Positions 4,181 through 23,869 of a DNA stretch of 50,605 bases are shown one piece after another (position 1 is the first letter of the stretch; every line of letters starts with the position of its first letter). Origin of the DNA: a virus. Position numbers and translations under genes: made by a program. The notes under the pieces were generated by a model. It saw only the letters and a program-made list of their open reading frames with translations, had not been told where the DNA came from and searched no databases. The stretch spans positions 1 to 50,605 of IMG/VR virus record IMGVR_UViG_3300037493_002198, one strand, 5' to 3'.

Positions 4181-5428
4181 ATGAAAATATTTGTTCAAAT
4201 CGCATCGTATCGTGATCCACAATTGGAACCAACAATTAAAAGTATGTTGGAGAACGCGAAAAAACCTAAGAATGTAATAATTGGTATTTGTAGACAGTAT
4301 CACCCTGAAGATGGGTTTGACACATTAGAGGAGTACAGAAAAGATAAAAGATTTAGAATTTTAGATGTTTTATACTCGGATTCTAAAGGAGTTTGTTGGG
4401 CAAGAAATCAAGTTCAACAATTATATGGTGGCGAAGAATATACTTTACAAATTGACTCACATATGAGGTTTGAAAAGGATTGGGATGACACATTAATTAA
4501 AATGATTAAACAACTTCAAAAAAGAGGATTTGAGAAACCTCTTTTAACGGGTTATGTTTCCTCATTTGATCCCGATAATGATCCTGCGGGTAGAATACAA
4601 GAACCTTGGAGAATGGCGTTTGATAGATTTATCCCCGAAGGTGCGGTATTCTTCTTACCCGAAACAATCCCAAGTTGGCAAGAAATGAAAGAACCCGTTA
4701 CGGCAAGATTTTATTCCGCTCACTTTGCATTCACTTTAGGACAATTTAGTACCGAAGTACAACACGACCCCGAATTTTATTTCCACGGTGAAGAGATTTC
4801 AATTGCGGTAAGAGCATACACTCACGGTTATGATTTATTTCATCCACATAAAGTAGTTATTTGGCACGAATATACTCGTAAGGGTAGAACAAAACAATGG
4901 GACGATGATAAAGATTGGGTTAATAAAAATAATTTATCCCACCAAAAGAATCGTCAGTTATTTGGTATGGATGGTGAAGAAGTTACAATGGACTTCAGTA
5001 AATATGGGTTTGGAACTGAAAGAACATTAAGAGATTATGAAATTTATTCAGGTCTTTTATTTTCTAAAAGAGCGGTACAACAACATACATTAGATAAGAA
5101 CTATCCACCAAACCCTTATATTTTTGAAACTGAAGAGGACTTAATGGCAAGTTACGCATCAATATTCAAACACTGCATTGATGTTGGTTTTACTCAAGTA
5201 CCTGAAAAGGATTATGAGTTTTGGGTTGTTGCATTCCATGATCAAAATGATGAAACTATCTTTAGAAAAGATGCCGACCTTAATGAAATAAATATGATGA
5301 TGATGGATCCTGATGGGTATTGTAAAGTATGGAGAGATTTCCAAACGGTACATAAACCAAAATATTGGGTTGTTTGGCCCTATAGTACATCAAAAGGGTG
5401 GTGTGAAAGAATAACAGGAAATTTATAA
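4181..5428 (+). CDS. Glycosyltransferase, GlcNAc-transferase-like (GT60/PF11397 type)
   Basis: The product is 415 aa. The start (MKIFVQIASYRDPQLEPTIK) and the segment QIDSHMRFEKDWD match the family typified by Dictyostelium Skp1 GlcNAc-transferase, in which ASYRDP begins the GT-A domain and D-S-H acts as the DxD-type metal site. A downstream FYFHGEEISIAVRAYTHGYD stretch fits the same family, with GEE as likely catalytic acid region. Known members add GlcNAc to hydroxyproline or other protein hydroxyls. This is interesting beside Pro/Thr-rich proteins, but acceptor and donor cannot be read here. It is followed after 1 nt by the next gene, so it leads a rightward operon through 9900. Confidence 0.75.
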   Translation: MKIFVQIASYRDPQLEPTIKSMLENAKKPKNVIIGICRQYHPEDGFDTLEEYRKDKRFRILDVLYSDSKGVCWARNQVQQLYGGEEYTLQIDSHMRFEKDWDDTLIKMIKQLQKRGFEKPLLTGYVSSFDPDNDPAGRIQEPWRMAFDRFIPEGAVFFLPETIPSWQEMKEPVTARFYSAHFAFTLGQFSTEVQHDPEFYFHGEEISIAVRAYTHGYDLFHPHKVVIWHEYTRKGRTKQWDDDKDWVNKNNLSHQKNRQLFGMDGEEVTMDFSKYGFGTERTLRDYEIYSGLLFSKRAVQQHTLDKNYPPNPYIFETEEDLMASYASIFKHCIDVGFTQVPEKDYEFWVVAFHDQNDETIFRKDADLNEINMMMMDPDGYCKVWRDFQTVHKPKYWVVWPYSTSKGWCERITGNL

Positions 5429-5429
5429 A

Positions 5430-6137
5430 ATGGAATTTGCTATAGCTACATTTTGTTATGGTGAAAGATACCATAAACAAACAAATAGATTAATTGAATC
5501 TATTAATAAGTTAGAAGATAAACCGAATCTTTATGTTGTTACAGATAACCCAGAAAGTATAACAAAAGAAAGTTTTGTATTTGTTAAAGATATTTCAGAA
5601 TATAATGAAAAATATAAAACTTATAAGACTAACTATTATGACTTTGACTTTTCGGTTAAAAGATTTTCGGTTAGGTTTGCACTTGAGAGTGGATTTACTA
5701 AAATAATTTTAACCGATACTGACGTAATTCCAAATTACCCAATATTCAATGAAAAGAATGTTTTGGAATGTTTTATCCCAAATAGCGTATCAGGTCAAGT
5801 CGTGTACCTTTTTGAAAACGAGGTTAAGACTAATAGTATGTTAGGTAGAAGATTCCTACATTATGAAAATAAATTCAATGTTAATTATAATAAAACAAAC
5901 TTATGGATGCCAGAGGATTGTATTCAATTTTTAGATATTGAGAAAGATAAATTCTACTCATTTTTATCTACATGGGATGAGTGTGTGAAAATAAAAGATA
6001 TTGATAATCTACATAACATTCCCGCAGGGAACATAGATGAAATGTCTTTTTCGGCACTTCATAATGGGGTACAACTTAATAATAATTCAAATATACATGT
6101 TAATTTGTTGGTTGCAAATCACGAAAAATGGTATTAA
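5430..6137 (+). CDS. Putative GT-A glycosyltransferase with DxD motif
   Basis: The product is 235 aa. An N-terminal strand (FAIATFCYGERYH) is followed by a helix and second strand (NLYVVTDNPES). Later comes FTKIILTDTDVIPNYPIF, a hydrophobic strand running into D-T-D, the arrangement of the metal-binding DxD site of GT8-like and related GT-A enzymes. No named family can be assigned from sequence alone. It sits one base after the GlcNAc-transferase-like gene and 6 nt before the next gene, so it is almost certainly co-transcribed with them. Confidence 0.5.
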   Translation: MEFAIATFCYGERYHKQTNRLIESINKLEDKPNLYVVTDNPESITKESFVFVKDISEYNEKYKTYKTNYYDFDFSVKRFSVRFALESGFTKIILTDTDVIPNYPIFNEKNVLECFIPNSVSGQVVYLFENEVKTNSMLGRRFLHYENKFNVNYNKTNLWMPEDCIQFLDIEKDKFYSFLSTWDECVKIKDIDNLHNIPAGNIDEMSFSALHNGVQLNNNSNIHVNLLVANHEKWY

Positions 6138-6143
6138 TCTAAT

Positions 6144-7058
6144 ATGAATAAAGTATATTACACAAGAAAAGAAGATAGTTTATGGACTATTCACGATTTA
6201 TTTAATGAGATTTCATTACATATGAAAAATAATTATGAATCTGAAATTATAACCCAATTTGGCGGTCTTGTTTATGTTAGTGAATTTGATTACCATATTG
6301 GTGATTGTGAGATTATTATTTATGATAATACTAGTGACATTCTTAAAGTCATATCGTTTTCTGAAACAAAAACAGAGATTATAGATATACTGAAAAATAG
6401 GAACAATAAAGACGATATTTTTGTTGTATTACACTATCTAAATTGGGGGGATAATTTAAGAAACTTAGAAGGGTATAATTTCACGTTAGAAATAACCACA
6501 TCTTATCCATTTAGTCCAAAAATTAATTATGATTATTTTTATCATATTAGGCAATTAAAAAAACAAGAGGATCTTATTGATCAAATGTTTTTTAAAACAA
6601 CAACAGGAAGGGGAGATGAAAAAAAACTATCTGATATTAATTTAATTAACCAATCATTTTCACCTAAACCATTTGACCAATACTTAGAAATGTCTATAAA
6701 CTATAAAATTGGTTTATCAATACCTGGTGGTGGATATGAATTATGTCATAGAGATTTTGATTGTATGTCGGTAGGTTTACCATTACTTAGGTTAGAACTC
6801 GTTGGTAAATATAACCCTGAGTTAATACCAAATTACCATTATATCTCAGTACCAAGAGATAATATCGGGTATGATAATTTTATTGATTTAAAAGGTGGTG
6901 ATAACTACATTAACGAATATAAAAAAAGATTTATGGATGTTAAAGATGATTTTGAGTTTTTAAACTTCATAAGTAAAAATTCCTTTCTATATTATAAGGA
7001 GAATTTAAGTCCTGAAAAAAGACTAATTAAAATATTAAACACATTAAAAATAAATTAA
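6144..7058 (+). CDS. Putative GT-B-like glycosyltransferase (hypothetical)
   Basis: The product is 304 aa. The N-terminal half is not recognisable. The C-terminal half contains IGLSIPGGGYELCHRDFDCM followed by SVGLPLLRLEL, which resembles the donor-site region of exostosin-like and other GT-B enzymes (Gly-rich loop, Arg/Asp, then M..G.P.l). The C-terminus is Lys-rich. Company in a run of glycosyltransferases and methyltransferases supports a sugar-transfer role, but the call is an inference. Confidence 0.4.
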   Translation: MNKVYYTRKEDSLWTIHDLFNEISLHMKNNYESEIITQFGGLVYVSEFDYHIGDCEIIIYDNTSDILKVISFSETKTEIIDILKNRNNKDDIFVVLHYLNWGDNLRNLEGYNFTLEITTSYPFSPKINYDYFYHIRQLKKQEDLIDQMFFKTTTGRGDEKKLSDINLINQSFSPKPFDQYLEMSINYKIGLSIPGGGYELCHRDFDCMSVGLPLLRLELVGKYNPELIPNYHYISVPRDNIGYDNFIDLKGGDNYINEYKKRFMDVKDDFEFLNFISKNSFLYYKENLSPEKRLIKILNTLKIN

Positions 7059-7061
7059 AAA

Positions 7062-7586
7062 ATGATAAATTATACTATTGAGAGTGAAAACTCTACCGAT
7101 CACTGGCCTTACTTTGAGAGTTCTAACCATAATGTTTTAGATTTGGGGTGTGGTAGATGGTACACGGATTTAAAAGAGGAGTTAAGTCCTTTTTATTTTG
7201 GGAGAAATGCTAATAAAGTTATTGGGATAGATTCAAACCCACAAGACATAGAATATTACACAAATGAAACAATTGATGATCCAAAATACACATTTGAAAG
7301 AATTGAATTGACTCACTCGGATCAATTTAAAGATTTAATAGTTAGATACTCAATTACCGCAATTAAATGTGATATAGAAGGATATGAATTAGCTATGTTA
7401 GATTTAACTAATGATGATTTAATTAATGTGGAAGAGTTAGCAATTGAGTACCATACTGAAGAATTAAAAAATAGTTTTATAAGTAGGGTTCAAGATTGGG
7501 GTTACGAAATAAAAGTAATGGCAAATTTTGCAAGAACTCCAGACAATTTAGGTGTTTTATTTTGTACTAAAAAAAATAAAAATTAA
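7062..7586 (+). CDS. FkbM-like SAM-dependent methyltransferase
   Basis: The product is 174 aa. Motif I is visible as NVLDLGCGRWYTD, the acidic end of beta 2 as VIGIDSNPQD, and the FkbM-type signature as IKCDIEGYELAML (family pattern K-D-x-E-G-x-E). FkbM enzymes O-methylate sugars and other hydroxyl groups. At 174 aa it is shorter than most but retains the whole core. It lies 3 nt after the preceding glycosyltransferase-like gene, consistent with capping or decorating a glycan made by this operon. Confidence 0.7.
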   Translation: MINYTIESENSTDHWPYFESSNHNVLDLGCGRWYTDLKEELSPFYFGRNANKVIGIDSNPQDIEYYTNETIDDPKYTFERIELTHSDQFKDLIVRYSITAIKCDIEGYELAMLDLTNDDLINVEELAIEYHTEELKNSFISRVQDWGYEIKVMANFARTPDNLGVLFCTKKNKN

Positions 7587-7597
7587 TTATTTAAGTG

Positions 7598-8227
7598 ATG
7601 AATATAAAAGAAAGAATAACAAAATTTACGGACTTAGAAAGTAATGATAGTTTATCAGAATTTGATAAACATTCCGCACAACAATTCCACGAAGCGTATG
7701 AAGTTTTTTATGACTTTATTAAAGAGATTAAACCAAAAAGAATTTTGGAGATCGGAACCGCAATGGGAGGGTTTACTAATTTTTTAAATGTTTGTTGTTT
7801 AGATTTAGGGTTAGATGTAAACATAAGAAGTTATGATATAAACAATTATCCATGGTATAACGACTTTATTAGTAAAGGTATTGATATAAGAGTTGAGAAT
7901 ATCTTTTCCAATAATTTTACTGAGATAGATAATGAGGTAATTGAATATATAAATGGTGAAGGTGTGACAATTGTTTTGTGTGATGGTGGTTGGAAAATAG
8001 GTGAGTTCACCTTAATCTCTAAACATATTAAACCTAATGATTTTATTTTAGCTCACGATTATGCTGAAAATAAAGAAATTTTTGAAGAAAAAATTAATGG
8101 TAAAATATGGAATTGGTTTGAAATATCTGACTCAGATATTTATCAATCAACAATTGATAATAACTTAATCATTTATAATAAATCCACATTTGAAAATGTG
8201 GCTTGGACTTGTAGAAAAAAAATATGA
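7598..8227 (+). CDS. Class I SAM methyltransferase, CmcI/rhamnosyl-O-methyltransferase-like
   Basis: The product is 209 aa. Motif I is RILEIGTAMGGFTNFL, beta 2 end IRSYDIN, and a later VLCDGGWKIGEFTLISKHIK leads to FILAHDYAEN. This pattern (ElGt..GgS...D...D.gh....) is that of the cephalosporin hydroxylase/CmcI group and small sugar O-methyltransferases. A GTG at 7595 directly precedes the ATG at 7598; the ATG is taken. The stop overlaps the next start as ATGA (8224-8227). Sugar methylation is inferred from context. Confidence 0.65.
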   Translation: MNIKERITKFTDLESNDSLSEFDKHSAQQFHEAYEVFYDFIKEIKPKRILEIGTAMGGFTNFLNVCCLDLGLDVNIRSYDINNYPWYNDFISKGIDIRVENIFSNNFTEIDNEVIEYINGEGVTIVLCDGGWKIGEFTLISKHIKPNDFILAHDYAENKEIFEEKINGKIWNWFEISDSDIYQSTIDNNLIIYNKSTFENVAWTCRKKI

Positions 8228-9900
8228 ATAATACAACATTAGTAACAGGATTATGGGATATTGGTAGAGGTGATTTAAGTGAAGGATGGTCAAGGTCATT
8301 TGATACTTACCTTACCAAATTTGAGGAACTTTTAAAATATGACGATAATATGATCATATTTGGTGATCAAAGAGTAATTGATTTTGCCAAAAATATTAGG
8401 GACGAAAAAAACACTCAATTTATTGTTAGAGATCTTGATTGGTTTAAAAATAATGAGTTCTATGAGAAAATCCAAACAATTAGAAATAATTCAGAATGGT
8501 ATAATCAATCCGGTTGGTTAAAAGACTCAACTCAAGCAAGATTAGAAATGTACAACCCTTTGGTTATGTCTAAAATATTTTTATTACATGATGCTAAACT
8601 TTTAGATAAATTTAATTCTGATTCATTATATTGGATAGATGCGGGGATTACCAACACTGTTCATTGGGGATATTTTACTCACGATAAAGTAATGGATAAA
8701 ATAAAAACCTTAACAAATAAGTTTTTATTTATTTGTTTTCCTTATGAAACTGATGTAGAGGTCCACGGGTTCAAATATTCCGAAATGAAAAGAATTACTA
8801 ATGACGAACCAAATATTGTTGCTAGAGGTGGTTTTTTTGGTGGTAGTAAAGAAACAATAAGTGAAATGAATGTATTATATTATAATATTATGTCAGACAC
8901 TCTAAATAATGGTCTAATGGGTACCGAAGAAAGTTTATTCACATTATTATTATATCAAAACCCACAACTAATTGATTATTGTGAAATTGAGGGTAATGGA
9001 TTAGTTTCTAAGTTTTTTGAGGATGTTAAAAATGATGAGGTTGTCATTAAGAATAAATCAAAACAAACACTATCAATAATTGAAAGACCAAATAATGTTG
9101 GGGTTTATGTTATAACATTTAATTCACCAAATCAATTACAAACCTTAATTGATTCTATGTTATTATATGACTCAAGTTTTATAGATAAAACAAAAAAGTT
9201 TTTGCTTGATAATTCAACGGACTTGGATACCACACCAAAATATTTAGAGATCTGTGAAAAATATGGTTTTAAACACATTAAAAAAGATAATATTGGTATA
9301 ACTGGCGGCAGACAGTTTATTGCAGAACATTTCAATGATCAGGAAGATCTTGGTTATTATTACTTTTTTGAAGATGATATGTTTTTTTATAACGGATCTG
9401 AACAAACTTGTAGAAACGGTTTTAATCGTTACATTAAAAACATATTTAACAATAGTTTAGATATAATTAAAAATGAAAATTTTGATTTTTTAAAATTAAA
9501 CTTCACAGAATTTTACGGGTCTCACGATAAACAATGGGCTTGGTATAATGTAGCTCAAGATTTTAGACAATTACATTGGCCAAATAACCAAAGACTACCA
9601 CAACAAGGTTTAGACCCAAATTCACCAAATTTAGAATTTAAACATATAAAATCATATCGTGGCACACCATATGTGTCAGGTGAAATATATCTTTCAAATT
9701 GGCCAATATTAATGACAAAAGAAGGTAACTATAATTGTTATCTTAAAACAAAATTCCAATACCCATATGAACAAACATTAATGAGTCATTGTTATCAGGA
9801 AACGATAAAAGGTAATATAAAGTCAGGTATTTTATTAGCAACACCAACCGAACACAATAGATTTGATCATTATGATGGTTCTTTAAGAAAAGAATGTTAA
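8224..9900 (+). CDS. Bifunctional HtrL/YibB-like and GT2-like glycosyltransferase
   Basis: The product is 558 aa with two parts. Residues about 1-270 match the HtrL/YibB pattern: TLVTGLWDIGRGDLSEGWSR at the start, then FDTYLTKFEELL, MIIFGD, and a YWIDAGI segment with acidic residue. HtrL/YibB proteins are encoded in LPS and capsule loci and are thought to be glycosyltransferases. Residues about 290-558 form a separate GT-A domain: VGVYVITFNSPNQLQTLIDS, a GITGGRQF loop, then YYFFEDDMFF with an acidic DxD-like site. The fusion would let one polypeptide add two sugars or add one and modify it. It is last in the operon, with translation coupled to the methyltransferase before it. Confidence 0.6.
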   Translation: MNNTTLVTGLWDIGRGDLSEGWSRSFDTYLTKFEELLKYDDNMIIFGDQRVIDFAKNIRDEKNTQFIVRDLDWFKNNEFYEKIQTIRNNSEWYNQSGWLKDSTQARLEMYNPLVMSKIFLLHDAKLLDKFNSDSLYWIDAGITNTVHWGYFTHDKVMDKIKTLTNKFLFICFPYETDVEVHGFKYSEMKRITNDEPNIVARGGFFGGSKETISEMNVLYYNIMSDTLNNGLMGTEESLFTLLLYQNPQLIDYCEIEGNGLVSKFFEDVKNDEVVIKNKSKQTLSIIERPNNVGVYVITFNSPNQLQTLIDSMLLYDSSFIDKTKKFLLDNSTDLDTTPKYLEICEKYGFKHIKKDNIGITGGRQFIAEHFNDQEDLGYYYFFEDDMFFYNGSEQTCRNGFNRYIKNIFNNSLDIIKNENFDFLKLNFTEFYGSHDKQWAWYNVAQDFRQLHWPNNQRLPQQGLDPNSPNLEFKHIKSYRGTPYVSGEIYLSNWPILMTKEGNYNCYLKTKFQYPYEQTLMSHCYQETIKGNIKSGILLATPTEHNRFDHYDGSLRKEC

Positions 9901-9938: not shown

Positions 9939-11720
9939 ATGGAATTTTTCATTAAAAAGAACGCTACTCTCCCTATATTAAAATTACAGGTTGTAAAAGA
10001 CGGTAGAAGCGATTACAATTCTTTCATGGATATGATTGAAGAGTCTGCTATCTTCTTTTCAATGACTAATGTTGAAACCGGGATTCCTAAAATATCAACA
10101 AGTCCTGCTGGATTTGTTGAGAAAGTACTTTTGGAACCTAATGCGGAACCTGAGTATTACATTTATTATCAATTCAAACCACAAGACACAAATAAAACCG
10201 CAAGATATGAGGCACAATTCTTATTAAGAAATTCTCAAGGAGTCTTAATACTACCAATACGAGAACAATTATTTATTAATGTACAAGAAAGTTTTATTGC
10301 GGAAGATTTACCATATGAAAGTTGTTATTTAATAGAATTCCCTTGTTGTAATAATGTATGTCCAACAACAACCACAACTACAACAGTTTGTTGTTGTCCA
10401 CCGGATGTTCCAACACCTACACCAACACCTACACTAACATCAACACCACCACCAACACCATTTGTTTCTGAACCAGCACCAATCGACGAATTCTGTATGG
10501 AAGTATCAATACAAACTTCAACTCCAACTCCAACACCAACAGTTACACCAAGCTCAACTCAAATACCTTGTTGTAATACTTGGTATTATTATGGTGGCAC
10601 ATCCGTTACAGGATCAACATTCTCTTATGTTGATTGTTCGGGTAACACATCCACATTTAGTGCTGCTACCGATTATGCCGCTACAATATGTGCAACTTCA
10701 GTTACAAAACTTACAGGTAACGGAACAACTTACCTTGAAAGTACTTGTACTTGTGTTCCTGTTCAACCAACACCAACACCAACATCAACTTTAACTCCAA
10801 CTCCAACTGTAACATCAACAGATCCACCACCAACTCCAACACCAACACCAACAAGTAGCGCAATACCCGTATTACAATGTATCACAAGTGTTGTGCCTCC
10901 AACAACAATTGGTGGGATAACAATAACCGAAACATTTACCGGTAGTGTCCAAATCTTTACAACCGCATTTAGTAGTTGTAGTGGGGGGGTAACAACTCCG
11001 GCTAACTCAAAATGGTTAGGACAAGGTGGTCCATTTTCTTATACTATGAATTTTAGTTTACCCGTTAATAATATTATCATATTTTTAACTGCGACTGATC
11101 TAAATGAAAATTTCATTTTCACAACTAATAGTGGAAGTGGTATACCAACAATCTCGACCACATTAAGTTGTTTTATAACAATAGTTGGTAATCAAATTAT
11201 TTGTGGAACAGCAATCGGTCTTGGCGGGGGAGGTAAGTTTCTTATACAAAATTCGACAAGTTTCACATCTCTTACAATTACCGGTAATGGTGGAGGGAGT
11301 GGTTCTTTATTATCAATATGTAGCAACTCAATTCAAACGATAACACCAACACCAACACCAAGTATAACACCAAGTATAACACCAACTAATACGGTAACGC
11401 CAACTAATACGGTAACACCAACAGTAACACCAACAAACACAATTACTCCAACGCCAGGATTATCCCCAACACCGACAAACACAATTACACCAACACCAGG
11501 ATTATCCCCAACCCCAACAGTTACTCCAACTTTAACAGTTACCCCAACTTTAACCAAAACTCCAACACCTACTCCAACTAAAACAAAAACACCAACGCCA
11601 ACTAAGACAACAACTCCAACACCTACTAAGACAACAACACCAACACCTACTCGAACCCCACCTAGTCTTGCGGTAGGACCATTTACGGCATTTGTGTCAT
11701 TTGACTCATATAATTGTTAA
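9939..11720 (+). CDS. Pro/Thr-linker modular virion protein with structural N-terminal domain
   Basis: The product is 593 aa. Residues 1-135 form a globular beta-rich domain ([20 protein letters not shown]; later [20 protein letters not shown]) reminiscent of phage baseplate or fibre adaptor domains. They are followed by a Cys cluster and poly-Thr ([18 protein letters not shown]). Then come PT linkers, a Cys module (about 210-277, YVDCSG and CTCVPV, shared with the 526-aa protein), another PT linker, a 150-residue Gly/Ser-rich beta module (about 318-467, [12 protein letters not shown] to LLSICS; three more copies in the 1562-aa protein) and a C-terminal PT/KTKTPTP tract. Probably a virion fibre or decoration anchored by its N-terminus. 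Its 3' end abuts the protease gene. Confidence 0.6.
10891..11340 (+). repeat. Beta-rich 150-residue module, copy 1 of 4
   Basis: Pattern: (I/V)xGxT(I/V)T..F.G, a F.Y.(M/L).FS.PVNN sentence, an ITTNSG/TFTTN segment, Cys in the middle, then G(G/T)F.I.(N/S)S.SFT.LT(I/V).G and a terminal IC. The other copies are at about 14256-14748, 15684-16206 and 17216-17704. It is a protein-domain repeat rather than a DNA repeat. Confidence 0.75.
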
Positions 11721-11730
11721 TAATAAAAAA

Positions 11731-13647
11731 ATGATAACAGAAGAAATAAATAAAATATTAAAAGAATGGAATGATAATACATCATCTGACGTTGGTGTTG
11801 GTTATGCCTTTAAACAAACCGGCGGTGTTTATAATGGAGAAATTTGTATATCGTTTAGTGTAAAAGAAAAAAAACCATTATCAGAATTATCTGAAGATGA
11901 AATATTACCTTCTGAAATAAAAATAAATAATAACTTAACATTAAAAACCGATGTAATACAAGTTGGGGAAGTTTCTGTTCTACAATGTAGTAGGACCACA
12001 CCAATAACCCCTAACCAACCTTGCGAACCTTTCGTATTAACGGCACCAACAAATAGATCTGCATTTGCCACGTTAAGAGGTGGTATATCAATAACCTCTG
12101 TTAATCAAGGATCATCAGTTGGGACATTAGGAATGATAGTTCAAGATATACATACAAATGCTTTGGTTGGTTTAACAAATAATCATGTTGTTATTGGAAA
12201 TTCAATTGCCGCTCAATATCAAAATTTAAATCCCTATTTAGGAAGTAATTTCCCGGCAACAAATGAAGTTTTACCAAATAGTAATTTTACTTGTCAACCA
12301 GGAGAATTTGGTTTCCAAACAAATATTAAATTTGGTCAAGTGGTAAGATATGTACCTTTAGTACCAAATGGTACTTTAAACTTAACAAATGGTGGTGGTT
12401 CCGGATCACCTTCTTTAGTTCCAAGAAATAGAGTAGATGGGGCCTTAGTTAGTATTGATTGTACTAAAATAGATTTTAATCAATCTTTTAGATTTTCGGG
12501 GTTTGAGGCTTTAATGCCTAATCCATTGCCTTTTGCAACAACGGCAGAAATTGATAACTTAATGGTCACAAACCCACAATTATACAGTTCGGGTAGATCA
12601 ACAGGACCAAAAGGTTTTGGTACGCCCGGTTGTGAGTTAAGAGTATTTGGTATTAATATGGCTCCAACACCAATTAATGGTTATAAATGGCACGTATCTG
12701 GAGGAGTTCAGTATGGAACGGCCGCCGCTTATGATAATAGATTAATTGCATTTTTTAAACCAAGTGGAAACGCGGCTCAACCCCATTGTTTATGGCCATG
12801 CGCCGCAGGAGATTCGGGGTCAATGTTAATTGCTAACTTTGGAACACAAACCGATCCAAACTTTAAAGTAATAGGTTTAGTATTTGCCGGAAATAGTTCA
12901 CCCTCTTATCCAAATACATGGAATGATAACAGTGGTTGTAACGTATTTACTTGTAATTACGGATCATACTCAGCTTGGTTAGGTTTTGCGTGTCGTATTG
13001 ATGATGTAGCAAATCAATTAGGTATAAAAGCATGGACAGGTGGGACCGCACCATTAGTTAATCCCGCATCAATAAATGTAATAACTTTACCCGGATTATC
13101 CCCAATAACAGCAACAACGTGTCAAAATAACTATTACTATCAGATTGGTACAACAATGGTACAAAATTCTTGTGGTGGTGCAAATTTTGGAGCAAAAAGC
13201 ATATTGCTTCAGAGCCCACAATTCCTTAATAGTCAAACGTTAAATACCGGTGTAAGACACCCTAACTGTGGTGGATTTAACTATAGTGTTGGTTTATTAT
13301 GGATTTTAACTGACTTCACAATAAACGACGTTATTAGTTATAGTTTATTAATGGAAGATATTAATGCACCTGGAACAAGTCTTAGTGGTTATTTTGTTCA
13401 TTGGAAAGTAATAAACATACTACCATCACAAACATCGATTAATTTATGGACATCAGGACCTTCTGGATGGCAACCAGGAGCAACAATACAACAAACAGAT
13501 TGGTTCCCAAGTACGGTTAACCCAAATGGTTATGGCGGACCTTGTCAACCTGGTCACACATATAGAATATCCATTACCGCAATTTTAAATCCAGCCGCCG
13601 GCGGAGGTACAGTAACAAGTAATTTACTTACATTTATTAGTAGTTAA
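11731..13647 (+). CDS. Trypsin-like serine protease with C-terminal accessory domain
   Basis: The product is 638 aa from the ATG at 11731; a longer frame from 11692 would overlap the previous gene and adds no domain. Residues about 105-430 form a chymotrypsin-fold protease. LTNNHVV places the catalytic His at about 152, RVDGALVSID the Asp at about 236, and CAAGDSGSML the Ser at about 362 with the canonical GDSGS. The N-terminal 100 residues carry a possible interaction or inhibitory segment. Residues about 435-638 form a Cys-containing beta-rich domain like the surrounding adhesins. It has no signal peptide and no PT linker. Lying between two PT-linker proteins, it may process them or act on the virion or host surface. 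T4-like prohead proteases are a different family, so this is not the capsid protease. Confidence 0.8.
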   Translation: MITEEINKILKEWNDNTSSDVGVGYAFKQTGGVYNGEICISFSVKEKKPLSELSEDEILPSEIKINNNLTLKTDVIQVGEVSVLQCSRTTPITPNQPCEPFVLTAPTNRSAFATLRGGISITSVNQGSSVGTLGMIVQDIHTNALVGLTNNHVVIGNSIAAQYQNLNPYLGSNFPATNEVLPNSNFTCQPGEFGFQTNIKFGQVVRYVPLVPNGTLNLTNGGGSGSPSLVPRNRVDGALVSIDCTKIDFNQSFRFSGFEALMPNPLPFATTAEIDNLMVTNPQLYSSGRSTGPKGFGTPGCELRVFGINMAPTPINGYKWHVSGGVQYGTAAAYDNRLIAFFKPSGNAAQPHCLWPCAAGDSGSMLIANFGTQTDPNFKVIGLVFAGNSSPSYPNTWNDNSGCNVFTCNYGSYSAWLGFACRIDDVANQLGIKAWTGGTAPLVNPASINVITLPGLSPITATTCQNNYYYQIGTTMVQNSCGGANFGAKSILLQSPQFLNSQTLNTGVRHPNCGGFNYSVGLLWILTDFTINDVISYSLLMEDINAPGTSLSGYFVHWKVINILPSQTSINLWTSGPSGWQPGATIQQTDWFPSTVNPNGYGGPCQPGHTYRISITAILNPAAGGGTVTSNLLTFISS

Positions 13648-13676: not shown

Positions 13677-16600
13677 ATGAATTATGATTTTAATTTTATT
13701 GGGTATTATAACTCAAAACCTTCATGGGTTGGTTATGATGGTGCAACACCATTAACGATTAGATGGAATTTAAACGGTTATTGGGAAATGATTGGTTGGC
13801 CTTATTGTGGTGAACCAAGATCAACAGATAACGATTCTTTTCCGGACATAAATTGGTTTATTTATGATCCAAGTAATACTTGTTCGTCAACATCTTTTGA
13901 TGTGACAATTGGTGCTTGTCCTTTACCCGGAATTGCATCATTCCAATCTTGTTGTGATTCTAACGTTATAATTAGAATAACAGATATACCAATAGGTTTA
14001 TTCCCTTTTTCGACTAATTCATATTATTTAATTTCCGCATTCTTTACAGGTTGTCTAACCTATGTTTCACCAAGTACACCACCAACACTTTTCTTTTCAT
14101 TTGACGATTTAACGGATCAGTTAATAGAACAACTTGGTGGATGTGGTCCGTGTACAATAAATTATCCTTGTGATGCGGTAACACCAACACCAACTCCAAC
14201 AACATTACCACCAACACCAACACCAACACCTGTTTGTCCAATATGCCCAACGGTTAGTGCCTTACCCGTTTTAGGATCTTCAACAACAATTAATGGTGTT
14301 ACAGTAACCGCCTCAGGTTTTGGTGATGTGTCCTTTACCTCATCATTCGGATTTGTTTCGTGGTGTATGGTCGGATCACCTCCGACAGTGAATGGAAATG
14401 TATGGTTAGGACCAACAAGTTCATTTACATATATATTAAATTTTAGTGTACCGGTTAATAATATAGTGATAAGATTAATAAATTATAATATTAACTCAAG
14501 TGGTAGTGAATCATTTACGTTTACAACAAATACAGGTAATCCTATATTATCATCTTGTGATTATTGTTGTGCAACAATTAACGGAAATGTTGTTACCGCA
14601 GCCTATTGCCCATTAGGATCACCATCCGCCGATATGGGTGGGGGTACATTTACAATTTCAAATTCTTCATCTTTTACAACATTAACAGTAACAGGTCCTG
14701 GAGGTTTGGGAGGAACTATTATGGACATATGTTCAGATTCGGTACAACCCCCATCAACACCTACACCTACACCTACAGTTACACCAACAGATCCACCCCC
14801 AACACCAAGTAACACTCCATCATCCACACCAGCACCTGTTAATACAGATTGTTTTCCATTGTTGATGGAAAATTCATGGACTGGTTCAGGATTTCTTTTA
14901 AAAGTTTATGTGTACGACCCAATCAATTCGATAGCAACTCAAATTAATTTACCTCAGTCAACAGGAATAACCGGTCAAGGTATTGCCAATACAACAAATA
15001 AATTATGGATTCTTATGCAACCCGGTAACATAAGAGAATGGAATATAACTTTATCCCCATGGTCTGCGGTTTGGTCAAGAGATATAATATCTCCAGATTT
15101 AACAATTCCGGACATCGGTTGGTTGGCGAATGGATTATGTGTTTATAGAGATCCAATCACAAATTTAATTAACCCAAATATATTAGTATCCATGGGGTAC
15201 AATGTTCCCGTAATTGGTGGGTTCCAAGTAGTTTTAGTTGATATAACAGGATCTGTTTGGGTTAAAACACCAATATATACTTTTCCAAGTACAACTAGGG
15301 TTGTTGAAGATATTATAATGAACCAAAATGGTAAAATGATAATGACAACTAGTGATAATTTAACTGGTCAAGCTTATATAACACAACTACAGTTTGTTGG
15401 GGGGTCTTGGCAATCACAGATTGACTTTCCAATACCAATAACTGTTGCACAATCAATATTCCAATGGGGAACCTTCTTTTATATTCCAACAACAAATGGT
15501 ATTTTATATACAATACAAACATCACCACCATATACAACAACACTATTAGGTTCTTTAACACCTGCTGGTGTTATGGATTCATCACAATCAGAAGATTGTG
15601 TTACATTAGAATTTACAGTTCCCGCACCAACACCTACACCAACCCAAACACCTGTTTCAGTTGTTTGTTGTGAAAACGAATACGAGGCACCATTATTGGG
15701 CAATAGTGTTGTAATAAATGGAATAACGGTTACAGGTTCAGGATCAGGTAGTGTAATTTCACTTTCTCTACCTAACCCAGCAATTCCCGGTTGTGAAACA
15801 ATACCACTTCCTTTTAATAACTGCGTTCGATTGGGTAACAACTCATTTCCATTTAATCTTAACCCATCTTTCATTTACACGATGACATTTAGTTCACCCG
15901 TAAATGATGTGACCATACATTTAATCGATTACACAATAGTTAATGGTATTCCAGAATCATTTACTATAACAACAGATGTTGGTAACCCAACTATAAGTGG
16001 ATGTGGTAATTGTTGTTCGGTAATCACAAATAACACAATTACAGCAAGTTTAAGTGGTACTAATTGTATCATAACAATTTTTGGACAAGATGGCGGATCG
16101 GGAAGATTCACAATTAGCGCATCATCATCATTTACAACATTAACAATATCAGGTCCTGGAGGTGGTGGAGGTTCATTATTAAAACTTTGTGATATTGGTA
16201 CACCACTAACCCCAACCCCAACATCAACCCCAACCGTAACACCTACACCAGGTTTACCTTGTTTGGCCGAATGTAACATATTGTTTAATAACTCACCAGA
16301 TATATTTTCATACAATTTTTTATTAAATACAAGTACCTATCTAAACCCATTTATTAGTGGATTTATACCTGGAAGTTCTGACATTGCCCACACATCTAAT
16401 AAAATATTCATGTATACAAGTGATAAGATTTATGAATATGATTACATAAACTGCCCATTTAGTGCGTCTTTTAACAGAATAATAAACATTCCTGTTGGAA
16501 CTCAGTTAGGGAATGGATTGACTGCAATAAATAATACGACACTAGTTAGTACTAATGGTTTCTCACTCGGACAGTTGTGTATTGAAATAGATATTACAAC

Positions 16601-18365
16601 CACGAATGCACTTGTTGCAACTCAATTCCCACTTACTAATAGAAGTGTACAGGGTGACTTAGTATATACCACAACAGCCCAACCTAAATTATTGGCATTA
16701 GTCGGAGATATTGCGGGAAATTCATATTTATCCCAATATGATTATGCAACAGGTATTCTTGAGGTTGATGTTAATATTAATGTAATCAATGGTCCTTTTG
16801 GTTTATTTATTGAAAACGGTCAAATTTATGTAACTTCCGCAAATGGACAAATATGGGGGGTTGGTTTGACTTTCCCTTACCCATTAACATTAATCCAAAA
16901 TTCACCTTATCCAGTTGGTGGAGCATCAAGTATCCCTGAGTGTTCAGATGTGGAGTTATACCTTAGTGGTGCCACACCAACACCAACTCCAACTAATACG
17001 GTTACACCAACCGTAACACCAACAAACACCCAAACACCCACAGTTACCCCAACAGATCCTCCACCGACGTATTCTCCAACACCAACAAATACTCCAACAA
17101 ATACCTCAACCACAACTATTACCCCAACCCCAACCACAACTATCACCCCCACTAAAACAAATACCCCAACTCCAACCCCAACAAACCCAATAGGTGGTTG
17201 TTGCCCGATAGATAATGCATTACCATTAGAATTACCTGTAAACATAAGTGGAGTTACAATAAGTGAAACACATACAGGATTTGTATCACAAGGATCACCA
17301 ATAACTTTTGTTCCTTCATGTGGATCATCATCAATCACATTAAACCCACCACTATTATTAGGTCAAAACGCATTCTCATATGTGTTAACATTTAGTAATC
17401 CTGTAAATAACTTAACAATTAGATTAGTTAATTATAGATATACACCAACAGGTACCGATTCATATACAATCACCACAAATAGTGGTAACCCAGTAATAAC
17501 ATCATGTGAGTATTGTTGTGCAACTATTGTTAATAATGTTATTACGGCAACACAAGACCTGACCAATATTTACTGTAACAGTACTTTTGGTATTGGTAGT
17601 GGTTTATTTACCTTTAACGCAGTGGTTCCATTCACAACACTTACAATTGCAGGTCCGGGTAATGGATCAAGTGGTGTTTACGCATCTATCTGTAATTTTG
17701 ATGCAATACCTGCGGTAACACCAACTCCAACACCAACCAAAACTCCAACACCAACTCCAACACCTCAACCAGCAATATTAACATATTTAGTTAATGATTG
17801 TTGTACCCGAACACCAAAATATGTTAATTTACCAAACTATTTTGTTGCGGGTAATGTCATTGTTGGATCAGATTTTAAATGTTATGTAGTTGTTAATGTT
17901 CAATTTGGTATAGTAAATTTAACATGGTTTAATAACATAACATTTAGTAGTTGTGTTGATTGTTTAACTGAATTACCATGTACAACACCAACCCCAACAC
18001 CAACTAATACTAAGACTCCAACACCAACAGTTACTAAAACTCCAACGGTAACCCCAACGATAACCCCAACTAAAACGGTAACACCAACTAAAACGGTAAC
18101 ACCAACACCAACTAAAACGGTAACACCAACAGTAACTAAAACAAAAACTCCAACTCCAACACCAACACCAAGTTGTTTTTATTATAGAATTGTTAATAAT
18201 AATGCAACAAAAGAGATTTCAATAACATTTACACCTTGTTGTCTTACCGAAATTTCACCATTAATTATTGGACCATTAGGGATAACTTTTATTTGTTCGT
18301 CTACCACACCATCAGTACCTGCGAATGTTACCGCTACTTTATTAGGAAATTGTCCTACTTGTTAA
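13677..18365 (+). CDS. Giant Pro/Thr-linker modular adhesin
   Basis: The product is 1562 aa. Visible order: an N-terminal domain (1-85); a Cys-rich module (about 88-165, CC...CGPC...PC); PT; beta module copy 2 (about 194-357); PT with DPPPTP; a 240-residue repeat-rich domain resembling a beta-propeller (about 392-641: NKLWILMQPG, KMIMTTSDN, FFYIPTTNG); PT; beta module copy 3 (about 670-843); PT; a second propeller-like domain (about 861-1097: NKIFMYTSDKIYEYD, GQIYVTSANGQIWG); a long PT tract containing the shared 41-residue string; beta module copy 4 (about 1180-1343); PT; a Cys-rich module (about 1365-1435); a KTPTPT tract; and a terminal Cys domain. It is probably a long flexible virion fibre. 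It follows the protease gene by 29 nt, likely in the same transcript. Confidence 0.6.
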   Translation: MNYDFNFIGYYNSKPSWVGYDGATPLTIRWNLNGYWEMIGWPYCGEPRSTDNDSFPDINWFIYDPSNTCSSTSFDVTIGACPLPGIASFQSCCDSNVIIRITDIPIGLFPFSTNSYYLISAFFTGCLTYVSPSTPPTLFFSFDDLTDQLIEQLGGCGPCTINYPCDAVTPTPTPTTLPPTPTPTPVCPICPTVSALPVLGSSTTINGVTVTASGFGDVSFTSSFGFVSWCMVGSPPTVNGNVWLGPTSSFTYILNFSVPVNNIVIRLINYNINSSGSESFTFTTNTGNPILSSCDYCCATINGNVVTAAYCPLGSPSADMGGGTFTISNSSSFTTLTVTGPGGLGGTIMDICSDSVQPPSTPTPTPTVTPTDPPPTPSNTPSSTPAPVNTDCFPLLMENSWTGSGFLLKVYVYDPINSIATQINLPQSTGITGQGIANTTNKLWILMQPGNIREWNITLSPWSAVWSRDIISPDLTIPDIGWLANGLCVYRDPITNLINPNILVSMGYNVPVIGGFQVVLVDITGSVWVKTPIYTFPSTTRVVEDIIMNQNGKMIMTTSDNLTGQAYITQLQFVGGSWQSQIDFPIPITVAQSIFQWGTFFYIPTTNGILYTIQTSPPYTTTLLGSLTPAGVMDSSQSEDCVTLEFTVPAPTPTPTQTPVSVVCCENEYEAPLLGNSVVINGITVTGSGSGSVISLSLPNPAIPGCETIPLPFNNCVRLGNNSFPFNLNPSFIYTMTFSSPVNDVTIHLIDYTIVNGIPESFTITTDVGNPTISGCGNCCSVITNNTITASLSGTNCIITIFGQDGGSGRFTISASSSFTTLTISGPGGGGGSLLKLCDIGTPLTPTPTSTPTVTPTPGLPCLAECNILFNNSPDIFSYNFLLNTSTYLNPFISGFIPGSSDIAHTSNKIFMYTSDKIYEYDYINCPFSASFNRIINIPVGTQLGNGLTAINNTTLVSTNGFSLGQLCIEIDITTTNALVATQFPLTNRSVQGDLVYTTTAQPKLLALVGDIAGNSYLSQYDYATGILEVDVNINVINGPFGLFIENGQIYVTSANGQIWGVGLTFPYPLTLIQNSPYPVGGASSIPECSDVELYLSGATPTPTPTNTVTPTVTPTNTQTPTVTPTDPPPTYSPTPTNTPTNTSTTTITPTPTTTITPTKTNTPTPTPTNPIGGCCPIDNALPLELPVNISGVTISETHTGFVSQGSPITFVPSCGSSSITLNPPLLLGQNAFSYVLTFSNPVNNLTIRLVNYRYTPTGTDSYTITTNSGNPVITSCEYCCATIVNNVITATQDLTNIYCNSTFGIGSGLFTFNAVVPFTTLTIAGPGNGSSGVYASICNFDAIPAVTPTPTPTKTPTPTPTPQPAILTYLVNDCCTRTPKYVNLPNYFVAGNVIVGSDFKCYVVVNVQFGIVNLTWFNNITFSSCVDCLTELPCTTPTPTPTNTKTPTPTVTKTPTVTPTITPTKTVTPTKTVTPTPTKTVTPTVTKTKTPTPTPTPSCFYYRIVNNNATKEISITFTPCCLTEISPLIIGPLGITFICSSTTPSVPANVTATLLGNCPTC
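14256..14748 (+). repeat. Beta-rich module, copy 2 of 4
   Basis: INGVTVTASGFGDVSF to GTIMDICSD, with FSVPVNNIVIRL and SFTTLTVTGPGG in the conserved positions. Confidence 0.75.
15684..16206 (+). repeat. Beta-rich module, copy 3 of 4
   Basis: INGITVTGSGSGSVIS to GGSLLKLCD, with FSSPVNDVTIHL and SFTTLTISGPGG in the conserved positions. Confidence 0.75.
16983..17105 (+). repeat. 123-nt segment shared with 3224-3346
   Basis: Encodes the same 41 residues as 3224-3346, including [17 protein letters not shown]. Differences in the DNA are mostly synonymous. Confidence 0.8.
17216..17704 (+). repeat. Beta-rich module, copy 4 of 4
   Basis: ISGVTISETHTGFVSQ to GVYASICNF, with FSNPVNNLTIRL and FTTLTIAGPGNG in the conserved positions. 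Confidence 0.75.
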
Positions 18366-18417: not shown

Positions 18418-21258
18418 ATGTCGATATACTCGGCAGCCAATGTACCAAATTTAAATTATATGATATCACAAGAAGAAATTAAAAGTTTCCTAGAAGGGAA
18501 TGATCCTGAGCAGCATATAGTTGCCGTAGAGTTTGATTATGTATCAGACAACATTTTTAAAATCAAAGAAGTACCGGGAAAGGGTAAAGTTATCCAACAA
18601 GATTCATTCATTGCATTCGCTTGGGTTGGTGATCTACATGGATTAAATTTTTACGAAGGATCCAAATCATTACAAAAACAAGCGATGGGTAAATACGGTA
18701 TTATCATAGAAAAACTCCGAACAGATGGTAATGAACGATTAGAGAATGGTTTAACATTTATTGTTAAATCAATCAAAGGTTATCGCACATTAATTCAATT
18801 CTTCCGTGATGGTGGAATTGATCCTTGGGGTGAAAAGGCAAAAGACAAAATATTAATGGTTTCACCCGTGGAACAATACCTCATCTCAAAAGAGAAAAGA
18901 TTATTTAAAGGGTTTGAGGAATACAATGATATAACAAGATTTGTATTTGACCTTGAGACGACCTCATTAGAACCAAAGGATGGTCGTATATTCATGATTG
19001 GGATGAAAACAAATAAAGGTTTCCAAAAAGTTATTGAATGTTCAAATGTTGATGAAGAACGAGCAGGTCTTGTTGAGTTCTTTAGAACAATAGATGAAAT
19101 CAGACCATCGATTATTGCCGGTTATAATTCAGCAAACTTTGACTGGTTTTGGATTTTTGAGAGATGTAAAGCACTAAACTTAGATATTAAGAGAATTGCA
19201 ACATCAATGAATGGAAAGAAAACAATCTCACAAAGAGATTCAATGTTAAAATTGGCAAATGAGGTTGAAAGATTCAATCAAGTTCAAATGTGGGGATATA
19301 ATGTAATTGATATTATTCACTCAGTTCGTAGATCACAAGCAATCAACTCAAACATTAAAGAGGCAGGTTTAAAGTATATTACAAAGTTTATTGATGCCGA
19401 AGCAAAAGATCGTATCTACATTGATCACACAAGTATTGGACCAATGTATGCAGAAAAAGATGAATATTGGTTAAATACCGAAAATGGTAAGTACAAAAAA
19501 GTTGGTATTGACACAACGGTAGATGAGATATGTGTTAGACGAGGAGATGTATATCTTAAAACAACGGGGGACAACATAGTTGAACGTTATCTTGACGATG
19601 ACCTTGAAGAAACTTTGATTGTGGACGATGAATTCAACCAAGCAACATTTCTATTGGCGTCCTTAGTTCCGACAACATATGAAAGAGCATCTACAATGGG
19701 TACCGCAACATTATGGAAAATGGTAATGTTGGCTTGGTCATATAAATATGGTTTATCAATCCCTAAGAAAAAAGAACGAAGAAGTTTTGTTGGTGGTCTA
19801 TCACGATTATTAAAAGTAGGGTACTCTAAGGACGTTCTTAAACTTGACTACTCGTCACTATACCCATCCATTCAGTTAGTTCACGACGTGTTCCCTGAGT
19901 GTGATATAACGGGAGCAATGAAGGGGTTATTAACTTACTTCCGTAACTCTCGTATTATGTATAAGAATTTAGCCGCAGAATACAAGACTATCGATAAGAA
20001 AAAATCGACCTCATTTGACCGTAAACAATTACCTATTAAAATCTTTATCAATGCGTTCTTCGGATCATTATCGGCACCACAGGTATTTCCATGGGGAGAT
20101 ATTGACATGGGGGAACAAATTACTTGTACGGGTAGACAATACCTACGACAAATGTTAAAGTTCTTTAGTAAACGAGGATATAGTCCTCTCGTATGTGACA
20201 CCGATGGTATGAACTTCTCATTACCTGAGGGTGGTGTTGATGACAGAGTTTACATTGGTAAAGGAAAAAATTGGTTGGTTAAAGAGGGTAAAGAATATCG
20301 TGGTTATAATGCCGATGTTGCGGAGTTTAACGATATATTTATGAAAGGTGAAATGGGACTTGATTGTGATGGTACTTGGGATTCTTGTATTAATTTGTCT
20401 CGTAAGAACTACGCAACGATGGAACAAAATGGTAAAGTTAAACTAACGGGTAATAGTATTAAATCCAAAAAGATGCCAAAATATATTGAGAAGTTCTTAG
20501 ATAAGGGAGTTAAACAATTACTTAGAGGTGAGGGAAAAGAATTTATCGAATGGTATCATGAGTATATACAAAAAATATTTGACCAACGAGTTCCATTGGC
20601 TGAGATTGCATCTAAATCAAGAGTTAAATTAAGTGTTGAGGATTATCTTAAACGTAGTAAACAAACCACTATATCAGGTAATCTTAATTCGCGAATGGCA
20701 CATATGGAACTTCTCATAAAAGATAATATACAAGCAAATCTTGGTGATACGATTCTATATGTTAACAATGGAACAAAGGCATCTCATGGTGATGTTCAAA
20801 AAGTTAACAAATTAAAAAAAGGATGGACAGAGGAACAACTTAATTATTATTTTGTTAATAATGGAAAATTTCCTGACGACTCATTAACATCAATGATACA
20901 ACTTAACTGTTATCGTATTGATCCATCGGATTTAGAGAATAACCCCGAAATGTTAGGAGAATATAATATCCAAAGAGCAATTGCAACATTTAACAAACGA
21001 GTGGAACCTTTGATGATTGTGTTTGATGATGAGGTTAGAGATACTTTATTAGTTAAAGATCCTGAAGATAGAAGTTTTTACACAACCGAGCAATGTAAGT
21101 TGATTAATGGTAAACCATTTAGTCCTGAAGACCAAGATGATGTTTATGAAAACTTAATCAAAATGGAACAAGGTGAAGTTGATTTTTGGCAATCAGTTGG
21201 TATTAGCCCTGACCACATCTACGATATTGCCGAACCAGGTTGGGAACAATACCTATAA
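18418..21258 (+). CDS. 43: Family B DNA polymerase with 3'-5' exonuclease (T4 gp43-like)
   Basis: The product is 946 aa, close to T4 gp43. Exonuclease motif I is FVFDLETTSL (D178, E180) and Exo II is GYNSANFDWFW (D242). Polymerase motif A is LDYSSLYPS (D477), motif B is KIFINAFFGSLSA, and motif C is VCDTDGMNFS (D594, D596). All catalytic acids are present, so it should be an active replicative polymerase with proofreading. The C-terminus is acidic, as expected for clamp contact. Unlike most genes here it has a Shine-Dalgarno-like AAGGTGA directly before its ATG and a sigma70-like promoter, suggesting early or middle expression. It ends convergently with the reverse-strand block, only 20 nt from the next gene's stop. 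Confidence 0.95.
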   Translation: MSIYSAANVPNLNYMISQEEIKSFLEGNDPEQHIVAVEFDYVSDNIFKIKEVPGKGKVIQQDSFIAFAWVGDLHGLNFYEGSKSLQKQAMGKYGIIIEKLRTDGNERLENGLTFIVKSIKGYRTLIQFFRDGGIDPWGEKAKDKILMVSPVEQYLISKEKRLFKGFEEYNDITRFVFDLETTSLEPKDGRIFMIGMKTNKGFQKVIECSNVDEERAGLVEFFRTIDEIRPSIIAGYNSANFDWFWIFERCKALNLDIKRIATSMNGKKTISQRDSMLKLANEVERFNQVQMWGYNVIDIIHSVRRSQAINSNIKEAGLKYITKFIDAEAKDRIYIDHTSIGPMYAEKDEYWLNTENGKYKKVGIDTTVDEICVRRGDVYLKTTGDNIVERYLDDDLEETLIVDDEFNQATFLLASLVPTTYERASTMGTATLWKMVMLAWSYKYGLSIPKKKERRSFVGGLSRLLKVGYSKDVLKLDYSSLYPSIQLVHDVFPECDITGAMKGLLTYFRNSRIMYKNLAAEYKTIDKKKSTSFDRKQLPIKIFINAFFGSLSAPQVFPWGDIDMGEQITCTGRQYLRQMLKFFSKRGYSPLVCDTDGMNFSLPEGGVDDRVYIGKGKNWLVKEGKEYRGYNADVAEFNDIFMKGEMGLDCDGTWDSCINLSRKNYATMEQNGKVKLTGNSIKSKKMPKYIEKFLDKGVKQLLRGEGKEFIEWYHEYIQKIFDQRVPLAEIASKSRVKLSVEDYLKRSKQTTISGNLNSRMAHMELLIKDNIQANLGDTILYVNNGTKASHGDVQKVNKLKKGWTEEQLNYYFVNNGKFPDDSLTSMIQLNCYRIDPSDLENNPEMLGEYNIQRAIATFNKRVEPLMIVFDDEVRDTLLVKDPEDRSFYTTEQCKLINGKPFSPEDQDDVYENLIKMEQGEVDFWQSVGISPDHIYDIAEPGWEQYL

Positions 21259-22774: not shown

Positions 22775-23869
22775 TTATTTTTTAGTTCTTAAAAGATATA
22801 ACTCATTTACAAACTCCCAATTTACGTGATCCCAAAACTTTTTAACATATTCGTCTCTTTTGTTTCTATAACGTAAATAATATGCGTGTTCCCAAACATC
22901 AAGACCTAATAAAGGATAACCACCGTCTTTAACGACACTCATCATTGGATTATCTTGGTTGGGGGTCGATACAACTTTTAATCTACCACTTTTAGTGAGA
23001 ACTAACCAAACCCACCCTGATCCAAATCGATCTTTTGCCGTTTGATTAAATTCATCTTTCATTTTTTTTATGTTACCATATTGTTTTGTAATCTTTTCAA
23101 ATACTTCACCACTTGGTTTTTGTCTTTTCGGAGATAACATTTTCCAAAACAATGCGTGATTAAAGGCACCCCCCGCATTATTTCTAATTGTGATATTATA
23201 TTTACCAATAGATTTAACAATATCTTCTAACTCAACATCACCATAATCTTTTTTAGATAATGCATCATTAAGTTTTTTTACATATCCTTTATAATGTTTA
23301 TTATAATGTACATTCATTGTTTCAGGATCAACAAACTGATTTAATGAGGAATATGAGTATGGTAATTTATCAATACCAATTTTTTTCATTTCCATTAAAA
23401 AATTTTCACGGATGTTTTCCTTTTCAGTTAATAATATTTGTTCGTTTAATAAATTGATTTTTTTTCCAATACCAACTAAACCTTCATACATTATTTTTTC
23501 ATATTTTGGGAAATCACGTTCAAATTTTTTAATTACGGAACCCGCTTCAGAGTTTGCTTCATCCTCATTTGGACCACCAATATCTTGACCTCTTTCCATA
23601 CCTTTAGTTGATCTTTGCCACTCATGAACCCATTCGTGCGCCAATGTTCTACAAACATCTCTGTTTAATCTACCTTTGGTTAAAATTTTAAGTTCCGAAT
23701 TATCATTTCTACTACCCGTTGACATACCTTCAGTTTTCTCACCTAAAAATAAAACTGTAACATCATTTTTAACGGGGTATTTTTTTTGTAGGTATTTTAA
23801 AAAATCCCTCATTAGTTCCCTATCCTCTTTGGACATATCACATTTAATATGTTTAACTGTAACTTTCAT
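22775..23869 (-). CDS. Fusion of HExxH zinc metallopeptidase-like domain and Mn-type superoxide dismutase
   Basis: The product is 364 aa. Residues 1-130 hold LAHEWVHEWQ (H78, E79, H82) followed by GGPNEDEANSEAG, an HExxH plus E-(A)-N arrangement like gluzincins of the ImmA/IrrE kind. About 168-360 is a complete Fe/Mn SOD: LPYSYSSLNQFVDPETM then VHYNKHY (ligand H188, gateway Y196), NNAGGAFNHALFW (H238), FGSGWVWLVL, STPNQDNP (Q305) and LGLDVWEHAYY (D324, H328). All four metal ligands are kept. Gly234 together with Gln305 is the pattern of Mn rather than Fe enzymes. A Lys/Glu-rich helix joins the halves. It has its own TATTTAT motif and follows a terminator. SOD removes superoxide; what the peptidase half does is unknown. 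Confidence 0.85.
   Translation of the reverse strand: MKVTVKHIKCDMSKEDRELMRDFLKYLQKKYPVKNDVTVLFLGEKTEGMSTGSRNDNSELKILTKGRLNRDVCRTLAHEWVHEWQRSTKGMERGQDIGGPNEDEANSEAGSVIKKFERDFPKYEKIMYEGLVGIGKKINLLNEQILLTEKENIRENFLMEMKKIGIDKLPYSYSSLNQFVDPETMNVHYNKHYKGYVKKLNDALSKKDYGDVELEDIVKSIGKYNITIRNNAGGAFNHALFWKMLSPKRQKPSGEVFEKITKQYGNIKKMKDEFNQTAKDRFGSGWVWLVLTKSGRLKVVSTPNQDNPMMSVVKDGGYPLLGLDVWEHAYYLRYRNKRDEYVKKFWDHVNWEFVNELYLLRTKK

Follow-up and report, generated by a model that had tools for sequence, protein, structure and literature searches.

The window, by which we mean the whole 50,605-base IMG/VR record that was analysed, belongs to a tailed phage of the contractile type. At 11731-13647 it carries a gene for a predicted serine protease, placed between two genes for proteins with PT linkers, as an earlier note on this DNA had stated. 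The features that matter here are the following:

9939-11720, plus strand: upstream PT-linker stalk protein, 593 aa, with an N-terminal domain (aa 1-145) common to relatives
11676-11717, plus strand: C-terminal tag of the upstream stalk protein, 14 residues, just before the protease gene
11731-13647, plus strand: predicted NAL1-like serine protease with a C-terminal PEBP domain, 638 aa, ATG start
11731-11979, plus strand: N-terminal NAL1-type leader region (aa 1-83, GVGYxxK...TDVIQVGE), from phrog_20754 and the NAL1 profile
12067-13041, plus strand: predicted chymotrypsin-fold (alpha-lytic-protease-like) domain, aa 113-437, from the VIA comparison with alpha-lytic protease
12184-12186, plus strand: catalytic His152
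12436-12438, plus strand: catalytic Asp236
12808-12822, plus strand: GDSGS with catalytic Ser362 (12814-12816)
13198-13644, plus strand: PEBP (YbhB/YbcL-like) C-terminal domain; Pfam PF01161 match at aa 534-617 (13330-13581)
13677-18365, plus strand: downstream PT-linker stalk protein of 1562 aa that lacks the tag and has beta-rich module repeats
18418-21258: family B DNA polymerase
28822-32151: tail sheath
33197-33685: tail tube
33791-34555: baseplate hub

The two flanking PT proteins gave no PHROG, Pfam or NCBIfam family beyond a low-complexity match to phrog_15511. In the 29 bases up to and including the ATG (11705-11733) there is no Shine-Dalgarno-like sequence and an A-rich stretch instead, an arrangement common in Bacteroidota.

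The protease and its relatives

The earlier note had described a complete His152/Asp236/Ser362 triad with GDSGS, and the positions are as claimed: among 59 viral homologues His152, Ser362 and GDSG are each found in 59/59, and Asp236 in 58/59, the sole exception (L067) having Glu there. Both domains of the gene are under purifying selection, with a dN/dS against three relatives of 0.16-0.20 overall and 0.12-0.22 per domain, and six relatives of 73-94% identity retain the protein, one of them clipped by the contig end. The absence of a signal peptide is likewise borne out, since there is no hydrophobic N-terminal segment; over the first 75 residues, the 15-residue Kyte-Doolittle mean peaks at 0.73.

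When a profile of the viral protein and its bacterial homologues was compared with the PDB, rice NARROW LEAF 1 (NAL1) was the only significant family (E ~2e-6 to 9e-6), with a match that covers aa 18-152; HV and GDSGS of the viral protease align to NAL1 in a profile comparison, the GDSGS segment being non-significant by itself. The leader also matches phrog_20754 ('protease') over aa 18-159 (E 2.8e-14), and it is common to the bacterial homologues, in whose alignment the GVGxxxK and TDVxEVG motifs are present. AlphaFold modelled the protease part from an input alignment of the 59 viral homologues, with a pLDDT mostly above 85 in the protease domain, while seven close sequences gave a pLDDT of only 27.5. 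The best fold matches of the model are NAL1 entries (Foldseek E 2.1e-14; rice NAL1 VIA Z 26.5, rmsd 3.3, 307 residues aligned), alpha-lytic protease comes second (VIA Z 17.2, 192/198 residues), and the HtrA/DegP fold scores lower (Z about 13). Pfam finds no PDZ domain in the protein, neither Pfam nor PHROG matches it to prohead-protease families, and the gene sits among stalk genes.

Sequence and model together indicate that the ORF encodes a genuine serine protease of the NAL1-like family, and by its leader, triad and fold it is to be classed as an active-type member of a virus-specific branch of that family. 'Trypsin-like', the term used in the earlier note, is apt as a fold class only: residue 356, six before Ser362 by ungapped count, is a nearly invariant Pro where the S1 base of trypsin is Asp, so trypsin-like specificity should not be assumed.

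The likeness to NAL1 (PDB 8hau, 8pme, 7y77) extends over the N-terminal leader and the chymotrypsin-fold domain with its His/Asp/Ser triad, at about 17% identity; the plant protein, however, has no PEBP domain, and the viral ones are found beside stalk proteins or as part of them, with a tagged partner encoded upstream. Bacterial NAL1-like proteases (Rhizobium, Gemmatirosa plasmid proteins) and the putative serine protease of Aeropyrum coil-shaped virus (ORF 25-326) share the leader and triad motifs, but they lack the PEBP domain, no tag was found near them, and a long-branched tree places them apart from the viral branch. The best viral structural match is A0A7S9XDX3 of Virus NIOZ-UU157 (E 2.1e-41, 35% identity), an uncharacterised and unannotated protein whose 449 residues leave no room for a PEBP domain.

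A search of 50,697 named phage records gave no match to the protease, nor to three sampled viral relatives. Among uncultured viral contigs, in contrast, a single scan with the protease-domain alignment yielded at least 79 loci (best 80 of 100 relatives), so that the earlier statement on the rarity of chymotrypsin-fold proteases in tailed phages is right for named phages and fails for uncultured ones. The contigs reach 321,624 bases (~322 kb) among the matches listed; with a bacterial homologue as query, a 484-kb uncultured phage and Aeropyrum coil-shaped virus were matched. A sheath gene is present on 17 of 37 protease-bearing contigs examined (14 over the Pfam cut-off), and with about half of them lacking one, either the tail type varies or the contigs are fragmentary; terminase PF03237, found on 1 of 17 contigs, was uninformative. 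In bacterial genomes a scan returned three loci, one at 35% identity and two more remote ones (24-27%); at that sensitivity, bacterial genomes thus hold next to nothing of the viral branch. The closest of the three (L100, CALPIE020000194.1) is a short contig under a Bifidobacterium breve MAG; it codes for a protein related to the viral protease and is probably a mis-binned phage fragment.

The C-terminal domain

The region downstream of the protease domain had been called adhesin-like in the earlier note; we find a PEBP domain instead. Residues 534-617 match PF01161 with 31.1 bits (E 3.5e-7, cut-off 24), the corresponding domain of four relatives scores 37.6-48.8 bits, and the C-terminal region aligns with two bacterial YbhB-type proteins with the D, HW and GPCxP-H motifs kept. 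The anion-pocket residues D543, H557 and H609 align with bacterial YbhB-type proteins and are invariant across the clade, and the resemblance to E. coli YbcL (1fux) and PF01161 lies in the motifs around D543, H557-W558 and GPC-P-x-H609. In the PDB profile search 1fux was a weak match (E 0.32), NCBIfam TIGR00481 (YbhB/YbcL) gives 24.6 bits, below its cut-off of 57.75, and AlphaFold models the region at pLDDT <50, so the assignment is one of family, with a fold that the model does not confirm.

What distinguishes this member of the PEBP family is its fusion to a serine protease in a phage. The domain is found only in the clade of the window protease (P0001), which forms a single group on a long branch of the tree; elsewhere in viral contigs none was found. 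The PEBP family includes binders of lipid head groups and inhibitors of serine proteases, and either property could apply here. We picture the domain as an outer module that may attach to lipid or phosphate-bearing head groups, or cover the active site.

The tag on the upstream stalk

In most loci the neighbouring upstream ORF, usually one for a linker-rich stalk protein, stops a few bases short of the protease gene, and its final residues, placed after a linker, form a tag with the consensus NT-[ILV]-[FYW]-x-x-[FI]; examples from upstream ORF ends are GFNTIYTHFESL, GVNTIYKYLDIL, PSTIWIKFDPITPV, VNTLFIHIPTI and NNTIYIKYNTKSC. In its strict form the motif occurs in 46 of 60 ORFs directly upstream of a protease and in 2 of 772 other ORFs. 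Among linker-rich proteins a relaxed form is found in 40/46 upstream of the protease and in 0/75 others. Since the motif was derived from these same, related loci, Fisher p-values overstate the strength of these contrasts. The tagged stalk bodies fall into 8 groups with no homology detected outside the tag; it is missing from the PT protein downstream and from other PT proteins. A Hint-like look of the N-terminus of one upstream protein (L053) was rejected, as Pfam gives it no support.

The association was also approached from the tag side, by scanning three DNA patterns for tag variants. The first, NTIYTHFD/E, returned 11 true C-terminal tags, seven with the protease next to them, all on known contigs; the remaining four are new, belong to one lineage (L105, L106, L107, L109) and are followed by a tail-fibre gene, with no protease on these contig fragments despite the same tag. 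With TIWIKFDP, 13 true tags were found, and the protease comes next in 12/12 that have enough downstream DNA, five of these 12 on previously unseen contigs; the thirteenth (L133) is on the contig of L072, which does bear a protease. The single true tag for NTLFIHIP is on a known contig and has the protease; the other matches are due to chance. Exceptions exist on the other side as well: in L041, L044 and L076 the protease stands alone and the upstream tag is absent, and a hidden frame-shifted tag, sought in the exception loci, was not found. The link between tag and protease is thus strong, but not absolute.

Two variations on the tag were seen. In the upstream stalk of L007 (6096-7985) a tag-like sequence is internal (AAIGPFTSFVSFEAYDC) and is followed by another linker and domain, and in L023 and L030 the tag of the upstream ORF stands in tandem, twice at the C-terminus (NTVFVKYDII...NTVFVKYDVY).

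The position of the tag, at the very C-terminus of the protein encoded just before a protease whose triad is invariant, and its presence on unrelated bodies speak for dedicated processing, in which the protease would cut the tag, or transpeptidate the stalk onto a partner, during assembly; the logic resembles that of bacterial C-terminal sorting tags and their neighbouring enzyme. However, the tag by its sequence has neither the hydrophobic helix nor the basic cluster of known sorting signals, the protease is in many cases part of a stalk, and the lineage of L105, L106, L107 and L109, represented by fragments, keeps the tag without a protease. We regard processing as possible but doubtful. The related proposal of the earlier note, a maturation protease for the flanking PT-linker proteins, is helped by the tag as far as the upstream stalk is concerned, strong support for this protein as the partner; it finds no support for the flanking PT-linker proteins in general, given that the downstream and other PT proteins carry no tag.

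The same four tag proteins, with a tail-fibre gene where the protease would be, would suit a tag that is a general end-piece of stalks, a cap or attachment strand, and that neighbours the protease by inherited synteny, the two making no direct contact; in L055 the same tail-fibre PHROGs as in that lineage come after the protease. Against this speaks that the other linker-rich stalks of these loci are never tagged (0/75), and that unrelated bodies have the tag in common only at this one position. This explanation appears improbable to us.

Fused architectures and a proposed role

Most viral relatives are stand-alone proteases of about 400-440 aa, and the others are joined to further modules in one chain. 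P0003 (in L003) and L016 combine the protease with a C-terminal PT stalk, L079 with a PT stalk and a Gly-rich domain, L048 with DUF285 and PKD, and L090 with DUF285; L088 (8968-17268) encodes a single chain of 2766 aa with a NAL1-like protease, an M12B reprolysin-type metallopeptidase, many PT stalks and vWA. In L036 the protease gene is flanked by a connector gene, stalk genes, a baseplate-like protein and the tail sheath. Where the fusion is to DUF285, Gly-rich or M12B modules, the ORF directly upstream has no tag (4/4 phages: L048, L079, L088, L090); P0003, L016 and the P0001 clade are fused and have a tagged neighbour nonetheless.

The fusions to stalks and extracellular-type modules argue for a surface-exposed role on the virion, and they recur too often to sit well with an intracellular enzyme that acts on host proteins in the cytoplasm and lies among late genes only by position. 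Such a role would match that of the bacterial and plant relatives, NAL1 as the solved homologue being a plant intracellular protease; it would also agree with the lack of a signal peptide, none being evident by eye in the bacterial homologues either, and with L062 and L067, where the gene stands amid small, non-structural-looking genes. Yet these two loci, too, have a tagged linker protein upstream, and we consider cytoplasmic action quite unlikely.

The region around the window stalk seems to have gained or lost genes or gene parts by recombination. The N-terminal 145 aa of the upstream PT protein are 98% identical to P0004 of L003, its last residues match P0003 (13/16), and its middle domain is 48% identical to the stalk module of P0003; in L003 an extra protease gene separates the parts that match the N-terminus and the C-terminus of the window stalk. 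The gene order there is P0004, which ends in the tag, then the protease P0003, which also ends in the tag, and then the P0001 orthologue.

We favour, at a probability of roughly 0.45, a protease that is displayed on the virion and docked on the stalk by the tag. The enzyme would belong to a stalk or fibre assembly on the particle of a large tailed phage; the upstream stalk would end in a short beta-strand-like tag recognised by the protease, most likely as a docking strand, and the protease, borne at the distal end of the stalk, may cut host surface proteins. Support for docking and display comes from the conserved triad, the NAL1 fold and the purifying selection, from the fusion of the same protease domain to stalk modules in relatives, from the stalk and tail gene setting, from the pairing of the tag with upstream linker proteins that have unrelated bodies, from the chain-like anatomy of L003, and from the lack of the upstream tag in the four phages with DUF285, Gly-rich or M12B fusions. 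Counting against it are the tags without a protease and the three stand-alone proteases without a tag, the fused proteases whose neighbour is tagged, and the absence of a sheath gene from about half of the contigs searched. The virion-borne enzyme of the earlier note gains from the fibre and virion setting (stalk neighbours, fusions, the L036 locus), and its clearing of host surface proteins stays a proposal.

A variant that we hold to be rather unlikely is a modular fibre chain, in which each stalk tag would be held, or covalently joined, by the NAL1-like protease domain of the next protein. The protease of such a chain might carry a tag at its own end, as P0003 does in L003 (order P0004, P0003, P0001), with proteases and binding domains hung at the stalk ends.

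Phage particles are known to carry enzymes that degrade sugars and peptidoglycan. Dedicated phage surface proteases, to our knowledge, have hardly been described, and none was found in the open papers searched; nor did the open literature searched yield a description of the tag partner, of the fusion of protease and PEBP, or of how broad the viral branch is. The whole family is common in large uncultured phages, absent from the named phage records searched, and paired with a conserved stalk tag. If docked display is confirmed, the locus would offer a testable pair of tag and enzyme, a new route by which phages may open host protein coats, and a rare protease-PEBP fusion.

Some other genes of the window deserve mention. 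Between two PT-stalk genes, at 4181-9900, lie glycosyltransferase, methyltransferase-like and HtrL/YibB-type genes, a content that varies in relatives. A 364-aa protein on the minus strand (22775-23869) has an iron/manganese superoxide dismutase domain in its C-terminal part, and the tail sheath protein, with 1109 aa, matches sheath proteins only in its last ~300 aa and so has a very long N-terminal extension.
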